The notes under the pieces were generated by a model that was not told the origin of the DNA, made no database searches, and was given only the letters and a program-made list of their open reading frames with translations. From positions 1-8,704 of the forward strand of contig JAHFAK010000102.1 in NCBI GenBank assembly GCA_023250585.1: a stretch of DNA of 8,704 nt, given 5' to 3'. Made by a program: the position numbers and the translations under genes. Shown here piece after piece: positions 440 to 8,704 of the stretch (within the stretch, counting starts at the first letter, position 1; each line of letters starts with the position of its first letter). Source of the DNA: Deltaproteobacteria bacterium (lineage in GTDB: Bacteria; Bdellovibrionota_F; JAHFAK01).

Positions 440-1453
440 TTGAAAAATATCTTGGCACCAAGAACATGGGTTAATCCCCATCAACATTTTCATGCAGTTA
501 TAGAAAACCATTGGTATAGATTCGTACATGAACTTATCAATGATTTTGTATTTTCAACAGTAGATTTTTTTCGTAACCAAGGATTCTCTCCTGCATTAAT
601 GCCCGTAACTTGTTCTTCAGTATCAAGTCCAATGGGCTTAGGGAGTGATAGTTTACCTGTTGAAATTAATCTATTTAATAAGAATACCTATTTAGCAGAT
701 TCAATGCAATTTCATCTTGAATATCTAATGAGACAACGTGTTCCTGGAGTTTTTTATATTATGCCTACATTTAGAGGAGAAATGCCAGATTCTCGTCACC
801 TGAACCAATTCTTTCACTCAGAAGCAGAATTGGTAGGAACGTTGGAAGACGTAATGACTCTCGTTGAAAGATATATTTTCTATTGTACTGATAATATCTT
901 AAGGAACCAAAGCCAAAAGTTTAAAAAGTTGAAAATCAACACGGATCATATAGAACAATTCATTACCCTAGGACATAAGATTCCTCGCATTACGTTTCAG
1001 GAGGCTCGAAAGGTTATTGGTAACAATCGAGAATTTTACTCTCAATTATCTGAAGAAATAGAGATCATATCTCATAGAGGAGAACAAGAACTTATGGATA
1101 AGTTTGGAGGCATAGTTTGGCTTACTCATTTTTCAAAGAAATCAGTTCCTTTTTATCATGCTCACAATAATGAAGGATACGCCTTATGCGCTGATCTTCT
1201 CATGGGTATAGGTGAGGTTGTGGGTTGTGGGCAAAGACATGTAACTTTTGAGGATACTCTGAATGCTCTGAGAGAACATAAAGTAAATACGAGTGATTAT
1301 GAATGGTACCTATGTATGAAGAAAGAATATCCCTTACAGACATCTGGCTTTGGATTAGGTTTGGAAAGATATTTACTCTGGATATTACGACATGATGACA
1401 TTCGAGATATTCCTCTGTTTAATCGTCTTAAAAATACAGAAGGAATTCCATAA
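440..1453 (+). CDS. AsnRS-like class II synthetase core without anticodon-binding domain
   Basis: The protein (337 residues) matches the catalytic domain of asparaginyl-tRNA synthetase. Motif 1 covers roughly residues 38-57. The segment YLADSMQFHLEY (84-95) corresponds to the substrate loop. Motif 2 is FRGEMPDSRH (111-120), with the ATP-binding Arg112 and the Arg-His pair kept. A GIGEVVGCGQRH stretch lies at 256-267, and motif 3 is GFGLGLERYL (303-312), followed by IRDIPLFNR. The roughly 100-residue N-terminal OB-fold that binds the anticodon is absent. Family knowledge: AsnRS-derived cores of this shape act as AsnA-type asparagine synthetases in archaea, through aspartyl-AMP. Here the place at the head of a ligase operon suggests making an aminoacyl adenylate for a small product rather than charging tRNA. 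The usual GGSQRE is GCGQRH, so substrate choice may differ. The start is TTG, supported by AAGGA. Family call firm; substrate unknown. Confidence 0.88.
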   Translation: MKNILAPRTWVNPHQHFHAVIENHWYRFVHELINDFVFSTVDFFRNQGFSPALMPVTCSSVSSPMGLGSDSLPVEINLFNKNTYLADSMQFHLEYLMRQRVPGVFYIMPTFRGEMPDSRHLNQFFHSEAELVGTLEDVMTLVERYIFYCTDNILRNQSQKFKKLKINTDHIEQFITLGHKIPRITFQEARKVIGNNREFYSQLSEEIEIISHRGEQELMDKFGGIVWLTHFSKKSVPFYHAHNNEGYALCADLLMGIGEVVGCGQRHVTFEDTLNALREHKVNTSDYEWYLCMKKEYPLQTSGFGLGLERYLLWILRHDDIRDIPLFNRLKNTEGIP

Positions 1454-1479
1454 ATATTTTGAAACAGTTAGAGATAAAG

Positions 1480-2310
1480 ATGAATATAGAAACTTTACAA
1501 CCTTCTGATATTGAAAGGATGTCATACAATGAGTTAATTGGGCTTGTAAGAGAAACTAACAGGCCTCCAGGTGGAGTATCTTCAATTGCTCGAGTTGCTC
1601 AAATTGTTATGCTGAATTCAATGAAAAAGGTTCTTGAAGTTGGGACAAGTACAGGTGTGACGGCTATTGAGCTTGTACGATTCTGTCAATGTGAAGTTTA
1701 TGGAATAGATATTAACACCACAAGTCTCAAAGAGGCACAAGAAAGAGCAGAAAAATACGAAGTTACTCATTATGTTCATTTTCTGAAAGATGATACAACT
1801 CATTTAAGTTTTGAGAATGACTTTTTTGATCTTGTTTTTTGTGGCAATGTAACATCATTAGTTGCTCATAGAGAAAAAGCAATCAGTGAGTATTGGAGAG
1901 TATTAAAGTTTGGAGGATTTTTAGCTGCAATCCCAATGTATTATGTTAAATCTCCTTCAAAAAGTCTTATCAAGAAAGTAAGTCAAGCAATCCATATTGA
2001 TATAGTTCCTCATGATAAAGATTATTGGATAAGGAAGTTTACCTCTGAATCGTTCCATGTTTTTTTTAGTGAAGACTATCTGTTTGATACTATCGATGCT
2101 CACGTAATTGATGAGTTCGTTTCAACTATTTTGAGAAGGCCTCATTTATCGAAACTGCCTTATGAGTCACAAAAAAGTCTGAGTAGAGTATATAGTAATT
2201 ATATGCATATCTTCAGAGAAAATCTTTCACATATGGGTTTTACTATTTTAATTTTGAGAAAAGAATTTGAAACGCTAGATAGAGAACTCTTTACCGCAAA
2301 ACGTTTATGA
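1480..2310 (+). CDS. Class I SAM-dependent methyltransferase
   Basis: The protein has the Rossmann methyltransferase signature. Motif I, KVLEVGTSTG, lies near residues 50-59 counted from ATG 1480. The acidic residue after strand 2 is in YGIDIN (74-79), motif IV is DFFDLVFCGNV (114-124), and the post-motif segment is YWRVLKFGGFLAAIP (138-152). Before motif I sits TNRPPGG, a possible substrate-side element. The last third (about 170-276) is helical and probably forms the substrate lid. It would transfer a methyl group from SAM to a biosynthetic intermediate; the acceptor cannot be told. An in-frame TTG at 1459 would add seven residues, but its nearest purine-rich site (AAGGA at 1440-1444) is 14 bases away. 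ATG 1480 has GAG six bases upstream and is preferred. The stop overlaps the next start as ATGA (2307-2310), so translation of the two genes is likely coupled. Confidence 0.85.
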   Translation: MNIETLQPSDIERMSYNELIGLVRETNRPPGGVSSIARVAQIVMLNSMKKVLEVGTSTGVTAIELVRFCQCEVYGIDINTTSLKEAQERAEKYEVTHYVHFLKDDTTHLSFENDFFDLVFCGNVTSLVAHREKAISEYWRVLKFGGFLAAIPMYYVKSPSKSLIKKVSQAIHIDIVPHDKDYWIRKFTSESFHVFFSEDYLFDTIDAHVIDEFVSTILRRPHLSKLPYESQKSLSRVYSNYMHIFRENLSHMGFTILILRKEFETLDRELFTAKRL

Positions 2311-3272
2311 AAAAGATATGTGTTATTGCACCTGCAAATACTATGGCGGATATTCCTTCTGAACTTCTAGAGTTAGGGAAAAAACAATTAAGGAGTCTAG
2401 GATTTAAAGTAGTATTTGGGAAAAATATTTGTAATCGATATTTTCACACTGCGGGAACCGTTGATGAACGTGTATCTGATATTATTGATGCATTTACTGA
2501 TCCATCTATATTCTGTGTAATGGCGGTATTTGGAGGATATAATACTAATCAGTTATTAGATCGCATAGATCCTACTATCATTACAAATTCTGGAAAAAAA
2601 GTAATCGGCTATAGCGATTTTACCGCTTTTTTATTAGCATTTCAGAGCTTTCAGAATATAGATTGTTTTCATGGACCTGGATTTGCATCATTCTGTGATC
2701 CAAAATTTTTTGATTATACAAAAGAATATTTTTTAAAGGTAATAAACGGCGAAATGGTGAAATACACAAGTCCGAAGTTTTGTGCAGACGATCTTTGGTA
2801 TCTTAAGAAAAAATTTGGACCACGAGAAAAATATTTTTTCTCCGGATGGAAAATCTATAAAGAAGGAGTCTCAGAAGGTTCAATTTTGGGCGGTAACATC
2901 GAGACAATAACCAGATTAGTGGGGACTCGATTTTTTCCTGATTTCACAGACACAATTTTATTTTTAGAAGACGCAACGGGAAAAAGTCCTGGAGCATTTC
3001 ATCGTGATCTAACGCAGTTACGGCAAATTGGCATTTTTTCAATAATCAGAGGACTTATTATTGGTAAATTCCCAAAAAGATCACCTTTAGATTCAGGTAA
3101 GATAGTCAGTGCTATATTAGATGATGTAATAGAAAGAAAATACAGATATCCTATTCTCTATGATGTTAATTGTTCTCATGTTGATCCCATGATGACAATT
3201 CCGTTAAAAAAATATGCAAAATTATTTGCGCACGACAAACCTATGCTCATCGTAAATTATAGAGAGAATTAG
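2307..3272 (+). CDS. MccF-like S66 serine peptidase (LD-carboxypeptidase family), probable self-immunity enzyme
   Basis: This 321-residue cytoplasmic protein (no signal peptide) belongs to peptidase family S66. The nucleophile elbow is GYSDFTAF with Ser103. The catalytic Glu221 is in FLEDATGKSPG, and His291 is in CSHVDPMMTIPL, so the Ser-Glu-His triad is complete. An oxyanion loop FGGYNTNQLLDRID (75-88) resembles the GG-x-NSNQLL form of MccF rather than the RGGYG form of murein LdcA. The GW...GxxxGGNIETITRLVGT stretch (180-207) is also MccF-type. Family knowledge: MccF splits the amide between the terminal aspartate and the nucleotide of microcin C and protects its producer; related enzymes also cleave aminoacyl sulfamoyl analogues. 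Its place beside amide ligases and an exporter argues for immunity rather than murein recycling. That role is inference; the family and triad are seen. Start fixed by the ATGA overlap. Confidence 0.88.
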   Translation: MKKICVIAPANTMADIPSELLELGKKQLRSLGFKVVFGKNICNRYFHTAGTVDERVSDIIDAFTDPSIFCVMAVFGGYNTNQLLDRIDPTIITNSGKKVIGYSDFTAFLLAFQSFQNIDCFHGPGFASFCDPKFFDYTKEYFLKVINGEMVKYTSPKFCADDLWYLKKKFGPREKYFFSGWKIYKEGVSEGSILGGNIETITRLVGTRFFPDFTDTILFLEDATGKSPGAFHRDLTQLRQIGIFSIIRGLIIGKFPKRSPLDSGKIVSAILDDVIERKYRYPILYDVNCSHVDPMMTIPLKKYAKLFAHDKPMLIVNYREN

Positions 3273-3276
3273 TAGA

Positions 3277-4479
3277 ATGAATCATAAGACAAGAATAATC
3301 ACTTCTCAACAAGCTATATCTACGTACATTGCAACTTCGTTACTTTATTCTTTTGGGGATAAGATTCACGGAAGTAATTTTACAATTTTCTTACATTCTC
3401 GCGGGTTATCTTTTACCCAGGTTGGAATTATTATTGGCCTGATTGGTATTATGGCTGCAGTAACTGACTTTCCAACGGGTATTCTTGCTGACAAATATGG
3501 TCGCAAAAATGCTGTGAGTTTAGGGCTTTTTCTTTATGGTTTTGGCCTTCTTACCTTTCTCGTATATCCAATTGCATTTTGGAGTTTTCTGGGAGCTTTA
3601 TTTATAGGACTTGGAATATCGTTTTGTAGCGGATCTTTATATGCATGGATCAAGGGTTTCCTCGATCAAAGTGCTCTTCTAGAAAAAACTATTATTTTGT
3701 CCGAAGGACTTCGTTGGTTAGGGGCTACGTTAGCCGGGTTATGTGCATTTTATCTGTTATCTATCCAAGGAAAATACACGTTTCTTATTGGTGGACTACT
3801 TTTAATAAGCACATCAATTATGTTTTATATTTTTGTTCCTGAAAATTATGGAGATTATACAAAGGGAATAGGTAAGTTTATGAAAGAATCCTATCAAGAG
3901 ATAACAACAAATAAGCGGTTAGCTATGCTTTTTGTATCAAATCTTTTGGCCGATGTAGGCCTATTTACCTTTATTGTTGGATGGCAGCCTCTATGGGTTA
4001 AGGCAGGGAATTCTCATAAATCATTGGCATTCGTTTTTATTTTTTTAACGCTTTTTGCTGCTTTTGGTTCTATAACGATGACAAAACTTAGAAAAAAATC
4101 TGAAAAAACGATATTACTTGTAGCTCTTGGGATCCAATCAACTGCGCTACTGATGATTCCTTTTTCAAGTAACATATATACACTTTTGATGTCTTTCTTA
4201 GTATTTGAGTTTGCTATTGGTATTCGTGGAACCTGTATATATAACATGTATGTGAAACTTATTCCATCATCAAAAACCGCCTCTTGTCTTTCTCTGTTAT
4301 CAACGCTATCAGGGGGGATGAGATTTATTGCTGCAACTACAGCAGGAGTATTTATCGAAAAAGCACAGTTTTTGGTAGCTTTTAGTATTCCAGCGACTCT
4401 TTCGGTTATCGGCGGAATCATACTTTTTTGGAGATATCTACCTGTTAATTCTCAAGTAAGTATAGCCTATGAAAAATAA
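3277..4479 (+). CDS. Major facilitator superfamily transporter, probable product exporter
   Basis: The 400-residue protein shows about twelve hydrophobic segments in two halves, with a charged central loop near residues 190-213. MFS motif A is plain between helices 2 and 3: DFPTGILADKYGRKNAV (64-80). The N terminus is short and polar, so the first helix begins around residue 12. It sits in the inner membrane. Among amide ligases and an MccF-like peptidase, export of the finished compound is the most likely task, giving the producer a second line of protection; uptake of a precursor cannot be excluded. ATG 3277 follows the upstream stop by four bases, with GAGAG-like purines upstream. The end lies ten bases before the preferred start of the next gene. 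The substrate cannot be read from sequence. Confidence 0.85.
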   Translation: MNHKTRIITSQQAISTYIATSLLYSFGDKIHGSNFTIFLHSRGLSFTQVGIIIGLIGIMAAVTDFPTGILADKYGRKNAVSLGLFLYGFGLLTFLVYPIAFWSFLGALFIGLGISFCSGSLYAWIKGFLDQSALLEKTIILSEGLRWLGATLAGLCAFYLLSIQGKYTFLIGGLLLISTSIMFYIFVPENYGDYTKGIGKFMKESYQEITTNKRLAMLFVSNLLADVGLFTFIVGWQPLWVKAGNSHKSLAFVFIFLTLFAAFGSITMTKLRKKSEKTILLVALGIQSTALLMIPFSSNIYTLLMSFLVFEFAIGIRGTCIYNMYVKLIPSSKTASCLSLLSTLSGGMRFIAATTAGVFIEKAQFLVAFSIPATLSVIGGIILFWRYLPVNSQVSIAYEK

Positions 4480-4482
4480 AGG
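4478..4482 (+). promoter_or_regulatory. Ribosome binding site choosing ATG 4490
   Basis: AAAGG at 4478-4482 lies seven bases before ATG 4490 and overlaps the transporter stop codon. The alternative ATG at 4469 has no comparable site upstream, so 4490 is the better start. Confidence 0.55.
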
Positions 4483-4489
4483 CAATAAG

Positions 4490-5719
4490 ATGGATGTTAT
4501 TATAATCATGTCAAGTGATCTTGCTGGTGGAGTGAGAAAGTTTTCTGCCTTCATCAGGAGAGATGGTTTTAAGTCCTTATTAATAACGAATGTTAAAGAT
4601 GACCCAAATGCTGCCTTCTGTGACTTCTCGATTTATTTTCCTTGGAAGGAAGATCTTAATCCGTTAATTGGGGAACTTAATCTATCGTTTAATATTGCTT
4701 ATATTATTAATGCATGTGAGCGTTTAATTCATTGGCAACTCAAACTTATAGAAGGACTTAATAGAAATGATCCAAATCTACCTGCATATTATTTTTTAAA
4801 AAGTAAATATGATATTAGAAAAAAACTTCATACTGAAGGAATTGAAGATATACAGTTTATAGGAGGAACTCTCAGAGACTTATTGAACACACAATGTCAC
4901 TATTTCCCTTGCGTCATAAAACCTTCCTATTATTCAGGAGCATCACGTTGGGTTCGTACCTGTATTGACGATGCTGAATTAAAAAAGACAATTGTAAAGT
5001 TTTTAAATAATCCTCTTTTGATACATGAGGAATTTATTGTTGAGGAATACCTTCCAGGGATAGAATTCTCTTATGATGGGTATGTTGAAAACCAGAAATT
5101 CAACGGACTTTTTTTAGCAGAAAAATTAAATTTTGATTATCAAAATAATCATGATGGAGATAGTATAATTTCCCCACCAGTAACTATTTCCAAACAGTCT
5201 GTGTGTGCTCTTGAAAAAAAGATTCGAAAAATTGTAAAAATTTTACACATACATCGGATGTTTCTCCATATAGAAGGTCGAGTAAATGAAGATAACGTCA
5301 ATATTATCGAAATTAATGCTCGTATGGGTGGAGGTGAATATTCTAGTGCAATTAAATATATAACTGGAATTGATCCGATCAAAACAATGTTTGAACTCGT
5401 TGGTAAAGATGAAGTTTCACAACCAGAAGAACATTCACCAAAACAATATACCATGATGGTGAAATTTAACATAAAACAACGAGGAGTTTTTAAATCACTA
5501 ACTTCCTTAACTGAGATCTTAGCTCTCCCTAATGTAATTAATGGTTATATTTCTGATGGATTTGAGATTAGTTCTTTGGAACGCGAAAACGTGATGGCAG
5601 CATTTACTATTTGTGGAGATAGTTACGAGGAAGTAATAGATTTAAGAGAACATATCAAAAAGAATTTCAGATTTCTGGTATCAGAAAAGCATACTATCAA
5701 TACAAAGAGTAGGAGTTAA
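4490..5719 (+). CDS. ATP-grasp amide/peptide ligase
   Basis: The protein (409 residues from ATG 4490; 416 from ATG 4469) has the ATP-grasp layout. An N-terminal pre-ATP domain occupies about 1-95. The ATP-binding lysine is Lys144 in VIKPSYYSGASR. A VEEYLPGIEFSYDGYV segment starts at 184. The metal site is HIEGR (Glu262) followed by IIEINARMGGGEYSS, with Glu274 and Asn276. All key residues are present. Family knowledge: such enzymes activate a carboxylate as acyl phosphate and join it to an amine, as in BacD-type dipeptide ligases and carbamoyl-phosphate synthase relatives. A C-terminal tail (about 310-409) resembles the small domain of that ligase group. It probably makes one amide bond of the cluster's product. 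Neighbouring ATP-grasp gene 6 is of a different subgroup, so the two are not a recent duplication. Substrates unknown. Confidence 0.85.
   Translation: MDVIIIMSSDLAGGVRKFSAFIRRDGFKSLLITNVKDDPNAAFCDFSIYFPWKEDLNPLIGELNLSFNIAYIINACERLIHWQLKLIEGLNRNDPNLPAYYFLKSKYDIRKKLHTEGIEDIQFIGGTLRDLLNTQCHYFPCVIKPSYYSGASRWVRTCIDDAELKKTIVKFLNNPLLIHEEFIVEEYLPGIEFSYDGYVENQKFNGLFLAEKLNFDYQNNHDGDSIISPPVTISKQSVCALEKKIRKIVKILHIHRMFLHIEGRVNEDNVNIIEINARMGGGEYSSAIKYITGIDPIKTMFELVGKDEVSQPEEHSPKQYTMMVKFNIKQRGVFKSLTSLTEILALPNVINGYISDGFEISSLERENVMAAFTICGDSYEEVIDLREHIKKNFRFLVSEKHTINTKSRS
5711..5715 (+). promoter_or_regulatory. Strong ribosome binding site for the second ATP-grasp gene
   Basis: AGGAG at 5711-5715 lies six bases before ATG 5722, within the last codons of the upstream gene. 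It is the best Shine-Dalgarno match in the operon and firmly sets this start. Confidence 0.7.
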
Positions 5720-5721
5720 CT

Positions 5722-7053
5722 ATGAGCGATAGATCTGTGGCTCTCATTGGATTTGTGAATACTGAAGAGGTTATCGCAAAAACATTGAAGAAACATCACG
5801 TAAAGGTAGATGGTTATCTACTATTTGAAAATGTTGCTTTTGCTAATGCTTGTAATCGGTCACAGATTATTAATAGCAATTCTCTTGAAATGAGTTTAAA
5901 TAAAATCTTAACTCCACAATCCTACGACGTCGTTTATCTTGGCCCTATACCTGCTTTACTTATGATTTCTCCGGTGCTTCGTACAAATGGAGTTCCCCAT
6001 ATTGGTGCAACGAGAGAACAATTAGCCTATGAGTTAGACAAAACGTTAATCAGAAAGATATTCTCTCGTAAAAGTGCCATTCTACCTGATTATCAGATTA
6101 TTAACTCTATTGATGTAAAGGACATTGAACGAATTCTGCAGCATTATGATGGAAATTGTGTTCTTAAATTTGTAGGAGATTACAATCAAAAATATAAGGG
6201 AAGCCCCACGGGTAGAGTTCGTTTCAACGCTGAAACTATCACTTGTTTTGATGATATTATGGAGTTTATCTCAAAATCTATTGAGCTTTCAGGAAGTGTA
6301 ATAATTGAAGAAAAAGTTAAAGGGCTAGAATTTAGTTCAAACTACATCGTCGATGCCAAGGGAAATCTTTTTAGATTGGGAGAAAATCTTTGTTATAAAA
6401 GGCGAAATAATAATAATAAAGGTCCCATGTGCGATGCAACTGGCTCTATTGCTATTAACAATACACTTCCATTTTTAAATAACGATGATATTAGGTTTAT
6501 TGAAAATAAAATAATTATACCCTTTCATCAGTATGTAACTGAGGTAACAAAACAGCCATTTTGTTCTCTTTTAAATATTGACCTTATGAAAAAAGAAAAT
6601 GGGAAAATTGTGCTTTTCGAGATTAATTGCAGAGAACCTGGTGGTTTTACTGCAGCTACTATTTTTCCTGGATTGAAGAATGATCTATTTGATGTATTGT
6701 TTACTGCTCAAAATGGAAAACTACATACTATAGAGCCACAATATAGAAAAGGTGTTTCACTTGCTGTCGGAGCATTTCCAACTTTTTTTCCTGAAGATAC
6801 GGACCATAAAGATGTAATTATAGAAGTTTCAAAACAAATACCTGAAGGAATTAATGTTTTTACCGGCTGGGTAGATCTCCTTGAAGAGAATGAAACGAAA
6901 CGCATTATACGATTAAAAAATTCGCCGACATTATTGTTCCATTATTTTGATAAGGATGTTCAATCGGTTAGAAGAAAGATATATAAAACAATGAATGAAT
7001 TTGTTCCAAAAGAGCTTAATTATCGTACGGATATTGGTAAGGAATTTGAATAA
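5722..7053 (+). CDS. PurD-like (GAR synthetase-related) ATP-grasp ligase
   Basis: The 443-residue protein looks like phosphoribosylamine-glycine ligase along its length. Residues 74-97 (a GPIPALL segment, then GVPHIGAT) match the N-domain end of PurD. VLKFVGDYNQKYKG (147-160) carries the ATP lysine, Lys149. IIEEKVKGLEF (194-204) is the hinge segment with Glu196-197. A K(R)..NNNNKGP..DATGS stretch (226-242) sits where PurD has its KR-GDGDTGP-TGG loop. LFEINCREPGG (298-308) is the metal site with Glu300 and Asn302. The end (343-390) recalls the PurD C-domain. PurD joins glycine to phosphoribosylamine; the operon has no other purine gene and the loop is diverged, so a different amino acid and amine are likely. 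It may link an amino acid to an aminosugar-phosphate or nucleotide-like amine, which would suit the MccF-like peptidase. Not a housekeeping purD by context. Confidence 0.82.
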   Translation: MSDRSVALIGFVNTEEVIAKTLKKHHVKVDGYLLFENVAFANACNRSQIINSNSLEMSLNKILTPQSYDVVYLGPIPALLMISPVLRTNGVPHIGATREQLAYELDKTLIRKIFSRKSAILPDYQIINSIDVKDIERILQHYDGNCVLKFVGDYNQKYKGSPTGRVRFNAETITCFDDIMEFISKSIELSGSVIIEEKVKGLEFSSNYIVDAKGNLFRLGENLCYKRRNNNNKGPMCDATGSIAINNTLPFLNNDDIRFIENKIIIPFHQYVTEVTKQPFCSLLNIDLMKKENGKIVLFEINCREPGGFTAATIFPGLKNDLFDVLFTAQNGKLHTIEPQYRKGVSLAVGAFPTFFPEDTDHKDVIIEVSKQIPEGINVFTGWVDLLEENETKRIIRLKNSPTLLFHYFDKDVQSVRRKIYKTMNEFVPKELNYRTDIGKEFE

Positions 7054-7070
7054 TTTTATAACGATTTTTT

Positions 7071-8207
7071 ATGATAGATTTTAATAGAAATATTAATAGT
7101 CAGAAAAAGGTTACCAATGATGATATATACACCTTACTCACTGATTCAATGAGCTGTAAGCATTTACTATGGTTGCTCCCGAAAGTATTTGAAAAACGTG
7201 TATCACAAAGATCATCCATAGATATCTTAAGACAGTATCGAGAAAGTAAACTTTTAAAACCTTGTAACGTGAGTCAACGAAACCTCATAAGACTCGATAC
7301 AGTTTTTTATAATTACTTACCTTCTGATTTTTATGGAATTGAGTTATCTCCGGTCAACCCCTTAGGTTTGAATAATATACTCGCTCGTATCAATCAAAAG
7401 AATATATTATCAGCTATACGAACTACAGAGGTAGTTGCTGATCCAACTATAGCTCTAGCAATTGAGAGTGCTCATAGGAGGAGTGTACTGCTTGAAAGTA
7501 ATCCAAAGGATGCAACGACAGTAAAACTGTCTACAAGTCATCGGTCTCTTCGATTACAGTCATTTGATAAAATTCCAGGTTTTACTACGCACTTTAAATG
7601 CTTTTCACTGTGTACTGCAGGTAGAGGCAACAAACTTTTTAATTTCGAAATTCAAAATTTCAAAGAACATATTTCTTTCTATTTAAGTATAATACAAAAG
7701 CTTAAAAATAACGGCTTCTACATTGATGATATAGTTGTCTCTATCTCGGATATACGAATTATAGAAAGAATTATGAATTATTATAATCTCGAGAGATTAT
7801 ATATTATCAAACATACACAAGATCAAACATTTGATGTATTTAAGAAATACGATATAGGATTACCAAATTACTTTGATGATACTAAGATTTTATTGCCATT
7901 TACAGAAAAATACGGCTTACATGACGCTATCAATTTGCTCATGATTTTCGAGAAAAAATTATATACCGAACTCAAGAAGGAATATAAAAATATAACTTTC
8001 AATTTTGATCTTCATCGTATTGCTGGCATGAGATATTATGACCATGTGTGTTTTAAAATATCAGCAAAGAATTCGTTAGGAAATCGATATCCTTTGGTAG
8101 ATGGGGGAATAAGTAGCTGGACAAAAAAAATTTTACATAACAATAAAGAAAGATTACTTACGAGCGGATTTGGAACTGAATTGTTTTATAGAATGTTTTC
8201 TTCATAA
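7071..8207 (+). CDS. Divergent class II synthetase-like protein (HisRS/HisZ type)
   Basis: This 378-residue protein is recognisable only by motif. RIAGMRYYDHVCFKI (316-330) aligns with the HisRS RGLDYYTGTVFE segment. PLVDGGISSW (341-350) matches the Gly-rich GGGRYDGLV strand, and TSGFGTELF (365-373) lies where motif 3 should be. The central SHRSLRLQSFDKIPGF...HFKCFSLCTAGR (156-185) may be the motif 2 region, followed by helices (195-215). Motif 3's arginine is not conserved and the protein ends there, with no anticodon-binding domain. Such proteins are often non-charging relatives, as HisZ is for ATP phosphoribosyltransferase. It may be a regulatory or partner subunit, or an acyl-transfer enzyme using an aminoacyl adenylate or tRNA. 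It starts 17 bases after the previous stop with no clear Shine-Dalgarno, so its start is less certain. It is the last gene; no terminator is visible after it. Confidence 0.65.
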   Translation: MIDFNRNINSQKKVTNDDIYTLLTDSMSCKHLLWLLPKVFEKRVSQRSSIDILRQYRESKLLKPCNVSQRNLIRLDTVFYNYLPSDFYGIELSPVNPLGLNNILARINQKNILSAIRTTEVVADPTIALAIESAHRRSVLLESNPKDATTVKLSTSHRSLRLQSFDKIPGFTTHFKCFSLCTAGRGNKLFNFEIQNFKEHISFYLSIIQKLKNNGFYIDDIVVSISDIRIIERIMNYYNLERLYIIKHTQDQTFDVFKKYDIGLPNYFDDTKILLPFTEKYGLHDAINLLMIFEKKLYTELKKEYKNITFNFDLHRIAGMRYYDHVCFKISAKNSLGNRYPLVDGGISSWTKKILHNNKERLLTSGFGTELFYRMFSS

Positions 8208-8582
8208 TAACCGTTAACCTTTGCTTTATGTTCGATAGACAGAATCTTTGATTGCACAAGATAGGCCTTTGCAATAAGTTCTGGATGTTGTAAATCCCGA
8301 GTTTGACACTTGCGGAGAGGGAATGAGCTGAAATCCGGTAAAGACGTTGGGTGAGTTTGGAAAAGTCTAAAAACGTGTAATACCTACTCCCTAACTCCCC
8401 CCATTAACTGAGCTGGTACAAAAACGTAACGATTGTTAGTTAAGAATAACTGGCATAGGATGAAGACTTCTAAAGAATTAGGCATATCCAGAAATAGGTT
8501 GTATAAGAAGATGCAGGCTTTGGGGATTGGGTGATTATACATCTTAATTTTCTTTGTTTATACTTCATATAATTATCTTTAC
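8208..8582. other. Decayed spacer between the operon and livF
   Basis: No intact gene and no clear intrinsic terminator appear here. The sequence is richer in G and C than the operon through about 8400, then AT-rich again near 8535-8582. It contains the helix-turn-helix scrap at 8430-8534 and, on the minus strand, a 65-codon open frame (8186-8383) without ATG. That frame includes the helix-like residues ELIAKAYLVQSKIL. The mix suggests eroded remains rather than a regulatory region. Confidence 0.4.
8430..8534 (+). pseudogene. Fragment of a Fis-type helix-turn-helix (NtrC-family regulator C-terminus)
   Basis: The frame ending in TGA at 8532-8534 reads NNWHRMKTSKELGISRNRLY, then KKMQALGIG. This is the typical C-terminal Fis-like DNA-binding helix pair of sigma-54-dependent activators (usually N-W-x-R-x-x-A-A-x-x-LGISR-x-x-LY-x-K). 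The same frame is closed by TAA at 8427-8429, and no AAA+ domain lies upstream, so only about 34 codons remain. A GAG CTG GTA CAA AAA stretch at about 8411-8425 in another frame could be the preceding helix after a frameshift. It is probably a relic of a lost regulator. Confidence 0.6.
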
Positions 8583-8704
8583 CTAAATTCCCAGGTAGGC
8601 TTTTTTTACATCTTCATTAGCCAGAAGATTTTTTCCTGTATCGTGCATAATGATTGATCCATTTTCGATAACATAGGCACGATGAGAAATACGAAGGGCT
8701 ACAT
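8583..8704 (-). CDS. livF: Branched-chain amino-acid ABC transporter ATP-binding protein, C-terminal end (partial)
   Basis: The minus strand ends with VALRISHRAYVIENGSIIMH, then D-T-G-K-N-L-L-A-N-E-D-V-K-K-A-Y-L-G-I and a stop (complement of CTA at 8583-8585). The Ala-x-x-I-x-x-R-x-Y-V-x-E-x-G run and the final D-V-x-K-A-Y-L-G are the hallmark C-terminus of LivF, one of two ATPases that power branched-chain amino-acid import. The ATPase core lies beyond the window edge. It is transcribed towards the operon, so the two converge; it is probably host chromosome and unrelated in function. Confidence 0.85.
   Translation of the reverse strand, partial: VALRISHRAYVIENGSIIMHDTGKNLLANEDVKKAYLGI

Follow-up and report, generated by a model that had tools for sequence, protein, structure and literature searches.

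A seven-gene operon with an AgnA-family core and a degenerate HisRS-like paralogue: a candidate pathway for an agrocin 84-type nucleotide antibiotic

The window analysed here is the whole 8,704-nucleotide contig JAHFAK010000102.1 of a 2.24 Mb, 97% complete Deltaproteobacteria bacterium genome (assembly GCA_023250585.1), and its subject is a run of seven genes, P1–P7, whose first members resemble the agrocin 84 genes of plasmid pAgK84. The seven open reading frames (ORFs) are intact, span positions 440–8207 of the plus strand without internal stops and show operon-like spacing in the ORF list of the window, just as an initial annotation made from the sequence had described. The gap between P1 and P2 is 5 nt if P2 starts at TTG 1459, where the listed ORF begins, and 26 nt if it starts at ATG 1480; since homologues align from ATG 1480 and not from TTG 1459, the former is probably the true start. 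The remaining gaps are −4 (P2–P3), +4 (P3–P4), −11 (P4–P5), +2 (P5–P6) and +17 nt (P6–P7). Both ends of the window overlap other contigs (C86 and C48) at 100%, which places it in this genome; contamination is unlikely, given these exact overlaps and right-end repeats that recur in many contigs of the genome. The G+C content of the operon, 33% against about 37% across nine other stretches of the genome, is a weak hint of acquisition.

P1 (440–1453, plus strand as all seven; 337 aa, TTG start at 440) corresponds to the catalytic core of asparaginyl-tRNA synthetase (AsnRS) without the anticodon domain, and matches PF00152 (tRNA-synt_2) at E 9e-36. In tblastn searches of plasmids, its match on pAgK84 is AgnA, which bears the annotation ‘Agrocin84-synthetase’ and shares 38% identity with P1 over 97%; homologues closer still (42–46%) are carried by plasmids of Exiguobacterium, Xenorhabdus, Peribacillus, Streptomyces and Pantoea. 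P1 and AgnA align from one end to the other, and both motif 2 (FRGE, R112) and motif 3 (GFGLGLER, R310) are intact and invariant. AgnA itself is a truncated AsnRS lacking the anticodon domain, according to a review (PMC4392301), and TM84, the toxic half of agrocin 84, carries a 5′ N-acyl phosphoramidate (PMC5059758). By sequence, P1 is a member of the AgnA family, and it is proposed to be a P–N bond-forming or adenylating enzyme. P2 (1480–2310) is a predicted class I S-adenosylmethionine-dependent methyltransferase of the type found in AgnA clusters. It is 41% identical to the product of the gene next after agnA on pAgK84 and 46–49% identical to the methyltransferase partners in Xenorhabdus and Streptomyces.

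P3 (2307–3272) is MccF-like and has both the N and the C domain of Peptidase_S66 (E about 1e-27). Its triad (S103, E221, H291) and Trp loop (DDLW, 161–164) are common to E. coli MccF, and the loop is missing from E. coli LdcA and from this genome’s own LdcA; in enzymes of the MccF type this loop binds the nucleobase. In a tree of S66 enzymes, P3 and E. coli MccF group with the S66 enzymes of AgnA loci, and both LdcA proteins fall outside. MccF cuts the carboxamide that joins the aminoacyl and nucleotide parts of its substrates (PMC9239234), and P3 is predicted to be an MccF-like S66 enzyme acting in immunity and/or as a biosynthetic amidohydrolase. AgnC5 of pAgK84 is likewise MccF-like (30% to P3), and P1, P2 and P3 match agnA, the adjoining methyltransferase gene and agnC5 one-to-one.

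Three further genes encode a transporter and two ligases. P4 (3277–4479) belongs to the major facilitator superfamily (MFS; PF07690, MFS_1, E 2e-26) and is a probable exporter. P5 (4469–5719) is an ATP-grasp ligase (PF13535, ATP-grasp_4) resembling L-amino acid ligases; it matches the L-amino acid ligase BL00235 in the PDB at E 2e-7 and has close homologues in two Streptomyces AgnA loci, L052 (E 9e-50) and L065 (E 4e-43). P6 (5722–7053) is a second ATP-grasp ligase, PurD/GARS-like with a GARS_A match; it is not PurD itself, scoring 106.7 bits against TIGR00877 (PurD), where the cut-off is 288. The genome holds a second PurD-like ATP-grasp paralogue, of 430 aa and likewise under the PurD cut-off, at C98:12946-13962 (L111).

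To what extent these genes travel together was assessed with HMMs built here. Scanning species genomes with an AgnA alignment gave 80 loci (P1 alone gave no match), and with the window and the plasmids the set comprises 87 AgnA loci, which represent many phyla and are not independent of one another. They come from Proteobacteria, Firmicutes, Actinobacteria, Patescibacteria and one methanogen metagenome-assembled genome (MAG). In 69 of the 87, AgnA has an S66 gene no more than 9 kb away; at the density of this genome, two S66 genes in 2.24 Mb, such proximity would arise by chance in about 2%. A methyltransferase gene is within the same distance in 49 loci, and within 300 bp in 29. ATP-grasp genes accompany AgnA in 26 loci, ProRS-like genes in 17, AlaRS-like in 15, LeuRS in 12 and the P7 family in nine; counted over the whole locus, some synthetase paralogue is present in 47 of 87. 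Because so few loci have them nearby, the ATP-grasp genes look like tailoring functions, and P5 and P6 are best read, from sequence, as cluster-specific tailoring enzymes; the initial annotation had treated the two ligases as a defining part, and they are instead the least conserved part of the cluster. Six loci (L019, L021, L031, L037, L055, L066) have two S66 genes, and in several of them the two copies fall into different parts of the S66 tree, which hints at two roles. No AgnA was detected in the other genome of the window’s phylum (two genomes compared in all), or in 385 further genomes at a strict E of 1e-70; P1 and P7 had no match in viral contigs, nor P7 in phage records. One candidate neighbour family, c7, was set aside because it consists of shadow ORFs antisense to AgnA genes in genomes of high G+C content.

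P7 (7071–8207) matches no Pfam or NCBIfam family as a single sequence, but a profile of its family finds HisRS in the PDB (E 4e-4), and five of eight family members match Pfam tRNA-synt_His weakly, at best with E 7e-5. The AlphaFold model (pLDDT 72.8; weak at residues 1–64, 94–119 and 162–172) superimposes over residues about 50–378 on HisRS, HisZ and the HisRS-like domains of GCN2 with Z 18–23, and the protein stops where the anticodon domain of HisRS would start. Two arginines, R161 of motif 2 and R316, the counterpart of HisRS Arg259, are invariant in the family alignment. Motif 3 reads GFGTELFYR (366–374) and has lost its ATP-binding Arg, replaced by Leu or Tyr in each of the eight aligned members; one helical turn further on, an Arg or Lys is conserved. 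With neither anticodon domain nor motif-3 Arg, P7 is not a HisRS, and the true HisRS of the genome is encoded on contig C108. Alignment and model together identify P7 as a paralogue that has the HisRS fold but whose ATP site is impaired. P1 and P7 probably do different jobs, to judge from an ATP site that the former has kept and the latter has lost in a key part. The families given to P1–P6 in the initial annotation agree with the Pfam and NCBIfam matches, and the HisRS/HisZ likeness of P7 with its family profile and fold.

Homologues of P7 occur in eight other AgnA loci: a proteobacterium (L022), Patescibacteria (L041, L045, L070) and Firmicutes MAGs (L051, where the gene is split across two frames, L055, L066 and L091). 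With the window included, all nine P7-bearing loci have an S66 gene and eight have an AgnA-type methyltransferase. AlaRS-like or ProRS-like paralogues are present in none of the nine, compared with 30 of the 78 other AgnA loci (p about 0.02, relatedness ignored). On the AgnA tree, no fewer than six to eight changes are required to explain where P7 occurs, and its clustering does not go beyond chance, a scatter that would be expected if the synthetase position were exchanged. The fullest counterpart of the window is L022, from the uncultured proteobacterium MAG SKS3.bin72, in which homologues of P1, P2, P7 and S66 and an MFS gene form one same-strand run (9986–16382), that is, five of the seven gene types. 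It differs in having no ATP-grasp gene in the run, an MFS protein not detected as a P4 homologue and an additional 337-aa protein (L022:12122-13135). The latter defines, with its relatives, a family (c15) present in 10 AgnA loci and matching nothing in Pfam, NCBIfam or the PDB.

The synthetase-derived paralogues of the sister loci point to a possible function for P7. AlaRS-like AgnA loci often have a truncated copy, in some cases with a full-length AlaRS alongside; counted from the alignment, the motif-3 Arg is lost in 13 of 15 truncated paralogues and kept in five of five full-length AlaRS proteins. The divergent ProRS-like proteins keep motif 3, and several have lost the motif-2 Glu. In ascamycin biosynthesis, AcmF, a truncated AlaRS-like protein without ATP-site residues, moves Ala from Ala-tRNA to the NH2 of a nucleoside sulfamate, and AcmD, a full-length AlaRS, charges the tRNA and confers resistance (PMC12945691). 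P7 has the AcmF-type trait of a truncated class II synthetase that has lost ATP-binding residues; having a HisRS/HisZ fold and not AlaRS ancestry, it is not classed as a member of that type but may work like AcmF. From the parallel losses in the truncated AlaRS-like paralogues and the chemistry of AcmF, we infer by analogy that P7 is a transferase carrying an aminoacyl group from aminoacyl-tRNA to a phosphoramidate NH2.

Taken together, the operon probably makes an agrocin 84-type nucleotide antibiotic, that is, a stable, non-hydrolysable aminoacyl-adenylate mimic built on an N-acyl phosphoramidate. P1 would use ATP and place a nitrogen on the 5′-phosphate of the nucleotide, and P7 would transfer an aminoacyl group onto that nitrogen, most likely from aminoacyl-tRNA, as AcmF does for ascamycin. 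P2 would methylate the product or an intermediate; in phosmidosine, the phosphate is methyl-esterified. A group for masking or uptake, consisting of one or two amino acids or amines, may be added by P5 and P6, and P4 would export the product. P3 would hydrolyse the acyl-NH-P bond of product retained in or re-entering the cell, as MccF does, and so give immunity. The compound would act on an aminoacyl-tRNA synthetase, with HisRS only a guess from the ancestry of P7. Assembly would proceed without a precursor peptide: as initially annotated, the window has no ThiF-type (MccB) match among the seven proteins and no further long ORF, and no obvious ORF for an MccA-like precursor, although a seven-codon ORF could escape such a search. 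A Trojan-horse aminoacyl-adenylate mimic, already suggested by the initial annotation, is the best-supported reading, considering the AgnA affiliation of P1, the MccF triad and Trp loop of P3 and the co-travel of these families across phyla; the chemistry, amino acid and target proposed are predictions from the genes.

Several points weigh against this proposal. In the papers accessible to us, no demonstration of the AgnA reaction was found. The exact seven-gene set is absent from all other AgnA loci found, and the P6 family from every one of them. P7 homologues also exist without AgnA, on a Chroococcidiopsis plasmid (L016) and on a further contig (L118, G333:C76), so P7 is not specific to the AgnA pathway. 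We infer tRNA use for a protein that has no anticodon domain and whose N-terminal 60 residues are poorly modelled, and ATP binding could be regained through the basic residue located one turn beyond the lost motif-3 Arg.

One variant of the same pathway we regard as possible, if doubtful: P7 would adenylate an amino acid of its own or be a HisZ-like regulatory subunit, and no transfer from aminoacyl-tRNA would take place. HisRS, HisZ and GCN2 folds are equally close to P7, and its invariant R161 and R316 and the conserved basic residue would suit such roles; the loss of the motif-3 Arg in all aligned members, the reading of the motif-2 RxE as RLQ in the window, the parallel losses in AlaRS-like paralogues of sister clusters and the lack of a HisG gene in the window argue against it. 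A departure at the level of the product is unlikely: P5 and P6 would build a dipeptide-like antimetabolite from an unusual amino acid, P1 would supply no more than an amide by asparagine-synthetase chemistry, and immunity would come from removal of the peptide amide by P3, along the lines of dapdiamide- or bacilysin-type pathways. The likeness of P5 to L-amino acid ligases, an ATP-grasp protein resembling dapdiamide synthase in AgnA locus L010, and asparagine synthetase A as the top NCBIfam models for P1, under cut-off, would fit such a non-nucleotide product. It leaves P7-type paralogues without a role, though, and the affinities of P1 and P3 lie with AgnA and MccF, respectively, both of which are tied to aminoacyl-nucleotide compounds; the ATP-grasp genes look like tailoring functions.

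That the genes form a defence or detoxification island against incoming peptidyl-nucleotides is very improbable. MccF homologues are known outside biosynthetic clusters (PMC9239234), yet an AgnA protein, a methyltransferase, two ligases and a transporter in one operon are more than degradation needs, and the agrocin 84 locus has the same core. Hardly credible is a chance meeting of housekeeping genes from asparagine, purine and histidine metabolism and cell-wall recycling, despite the housekeeping members that every family in the window has. The genome encodes its own PurD (contig C96), LdcA (C10), HisRS (C108) and AspRS (C19), P1, P5 and P6 do not reach the cut-offs that NCBIfam sets for the corresponding housekeeping models, and P1, P2, P3 and P7 recur jointly in unrelated phyla. 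The initial annotation would have been undone by genes scattered or tied to housekeeping pathways, which is not what was found; its expectation that the genes co-occur elsewhere holds for these four and not for the full set. A stop-ridden remnant of an AsnRS C-terminus lies at C20:4856-5038 (L114), and no intact AsnRS was found in the genome.

The core is thus less novel than the term ‘undescribed’ in the initial annotation implied, being shared with agrocin 84 and, by inference, with phosmidosine-like clusters; what is new is that a HisRS-derived paralogue and two ATP-grasp ligases are joined to it, an assortment found nowhere else. The window shares with pAgK84 the AgnA-type truncated AsnRS, the adjoining methyltransferase and the MccF-like peptidase; the pAgK84 product, agrocin 84, is a Trojan-horse compound bearing a 5′ N-acyl phosphoramidate (PMC5059758). 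The window lacks the toxin-resistant second LeuRS (AgnB2; rest of the genome not searched), agnC1–C4, C6 and C7 and the sugar-phosphate arm, and has two ATP-grasp ligases and P7 in their place. With LeuRS-type matches in 12 of 87 loci, the second LeuRS marks agrocin 84 and not the wider class. Locus L013 of Streptomyces NBC_01707 likewise has AgnA, a methyltransferase, S66, a class II synthetase-like protein and MFS, but the synthetase-like protein is ProRS-like and not HisRS-like, and it adds molybdopterin oxidase, P450, asparagine synthase-like and condensation-domain proteins; its gene content suggests a phosmidosine-like cluster. The ascamycin pair AcmF/AcmD (PMC12945691, PMC4257720) offers an analogue for P7, a truncated class II paralogue with a damaged ATP site that acylates an NH2 on an AMP-like nucleoside. 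It differs in being AlaRS-derived, in using a sulfamate and not a phosphoramidate, and in a full-length AlaRS for charging and immunity; a term search of its published description found no AsnRS-like or peptidase gene. Microcin C (MccABCDEF) has in common with the window an MccF-type peptidase, an MFS protein, aminoacyl-nucleotide logic and, in some clusters (L105), a methyltransferase; by comparison, the window shows no ThiF-type MccB and no obvious precursor peptide. We found no literature on an AgnA-type HisRS-like system and none on how phosmidosine is made, and parts of the class may already be described in subscription journals.

A broader and speculative scheme, which we hold only tentatively and think more doubtful than not, would treat retired class II synthetases as assembly lines across phyla. 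Starting from asparagine and ATP, AgnA would form an acylated nucleoside phosphoramidate; an S66 enzyme would strip the aspartate and expose P-NH2, and an interchangeable AlaRS-, ProRS- or HisRS-derived transferase would cap it from aminoacyl-tRNA. The swapped paralogue would set which synthetase is poisoned, so that P7 would lead here to a histidyl-adenylate mimic. MccF relatives would then have a biosynthetic and not only an immune role, with which the S66 copies from two separate branches, frequent in two-S66 clusters, are partly consistent. Should synthetase-derived transferases indeed occupy an exchangeable position, they could guide the search for antibiotics that hit defined aminoacyl-tRNA synthetases, and the origin of the agrocin 84 P–N bond and acyl cap would become directly testable with seven small genes. 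To our knowledge, natural nucleotides of the N-acyl phosphoramidate kind are very few, and with the AgnA family as a marker such clusters show up on at least 80 contigs from various phyla, Patescibacteria and a methanogen among them. AgnA-type genes near S66 in Patescibacteria MAGs and a Methanovirga MAG (L040, L041, L045, L070, L093) stand where antibiotic clusters are unexpected.

No Rfam family matched in the window, promoter-like sites were fewer than in shuffled sequence, and no terminator-like site was found downstream of P7. The assembly has no 16S gene; over comparable length, its RpoB is 66% identical to that of Myxococcus and less so to those of other named genomes, which gives the host a rough placement. 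A repeat of ~40 bp at 8380–8424 has about 25 further copies on other contigs of this genome. It is followed at 8428–8548 by a remnant like the C-terminal helix-turn-helix of a Fis-type regulator, with three more copies at 91–94% (C148, C63, C91), and on the minus strand at 8583–8704 by the apparent end of a LivF-type ABC transporter gene, named by eye, which runs on into contig C48.

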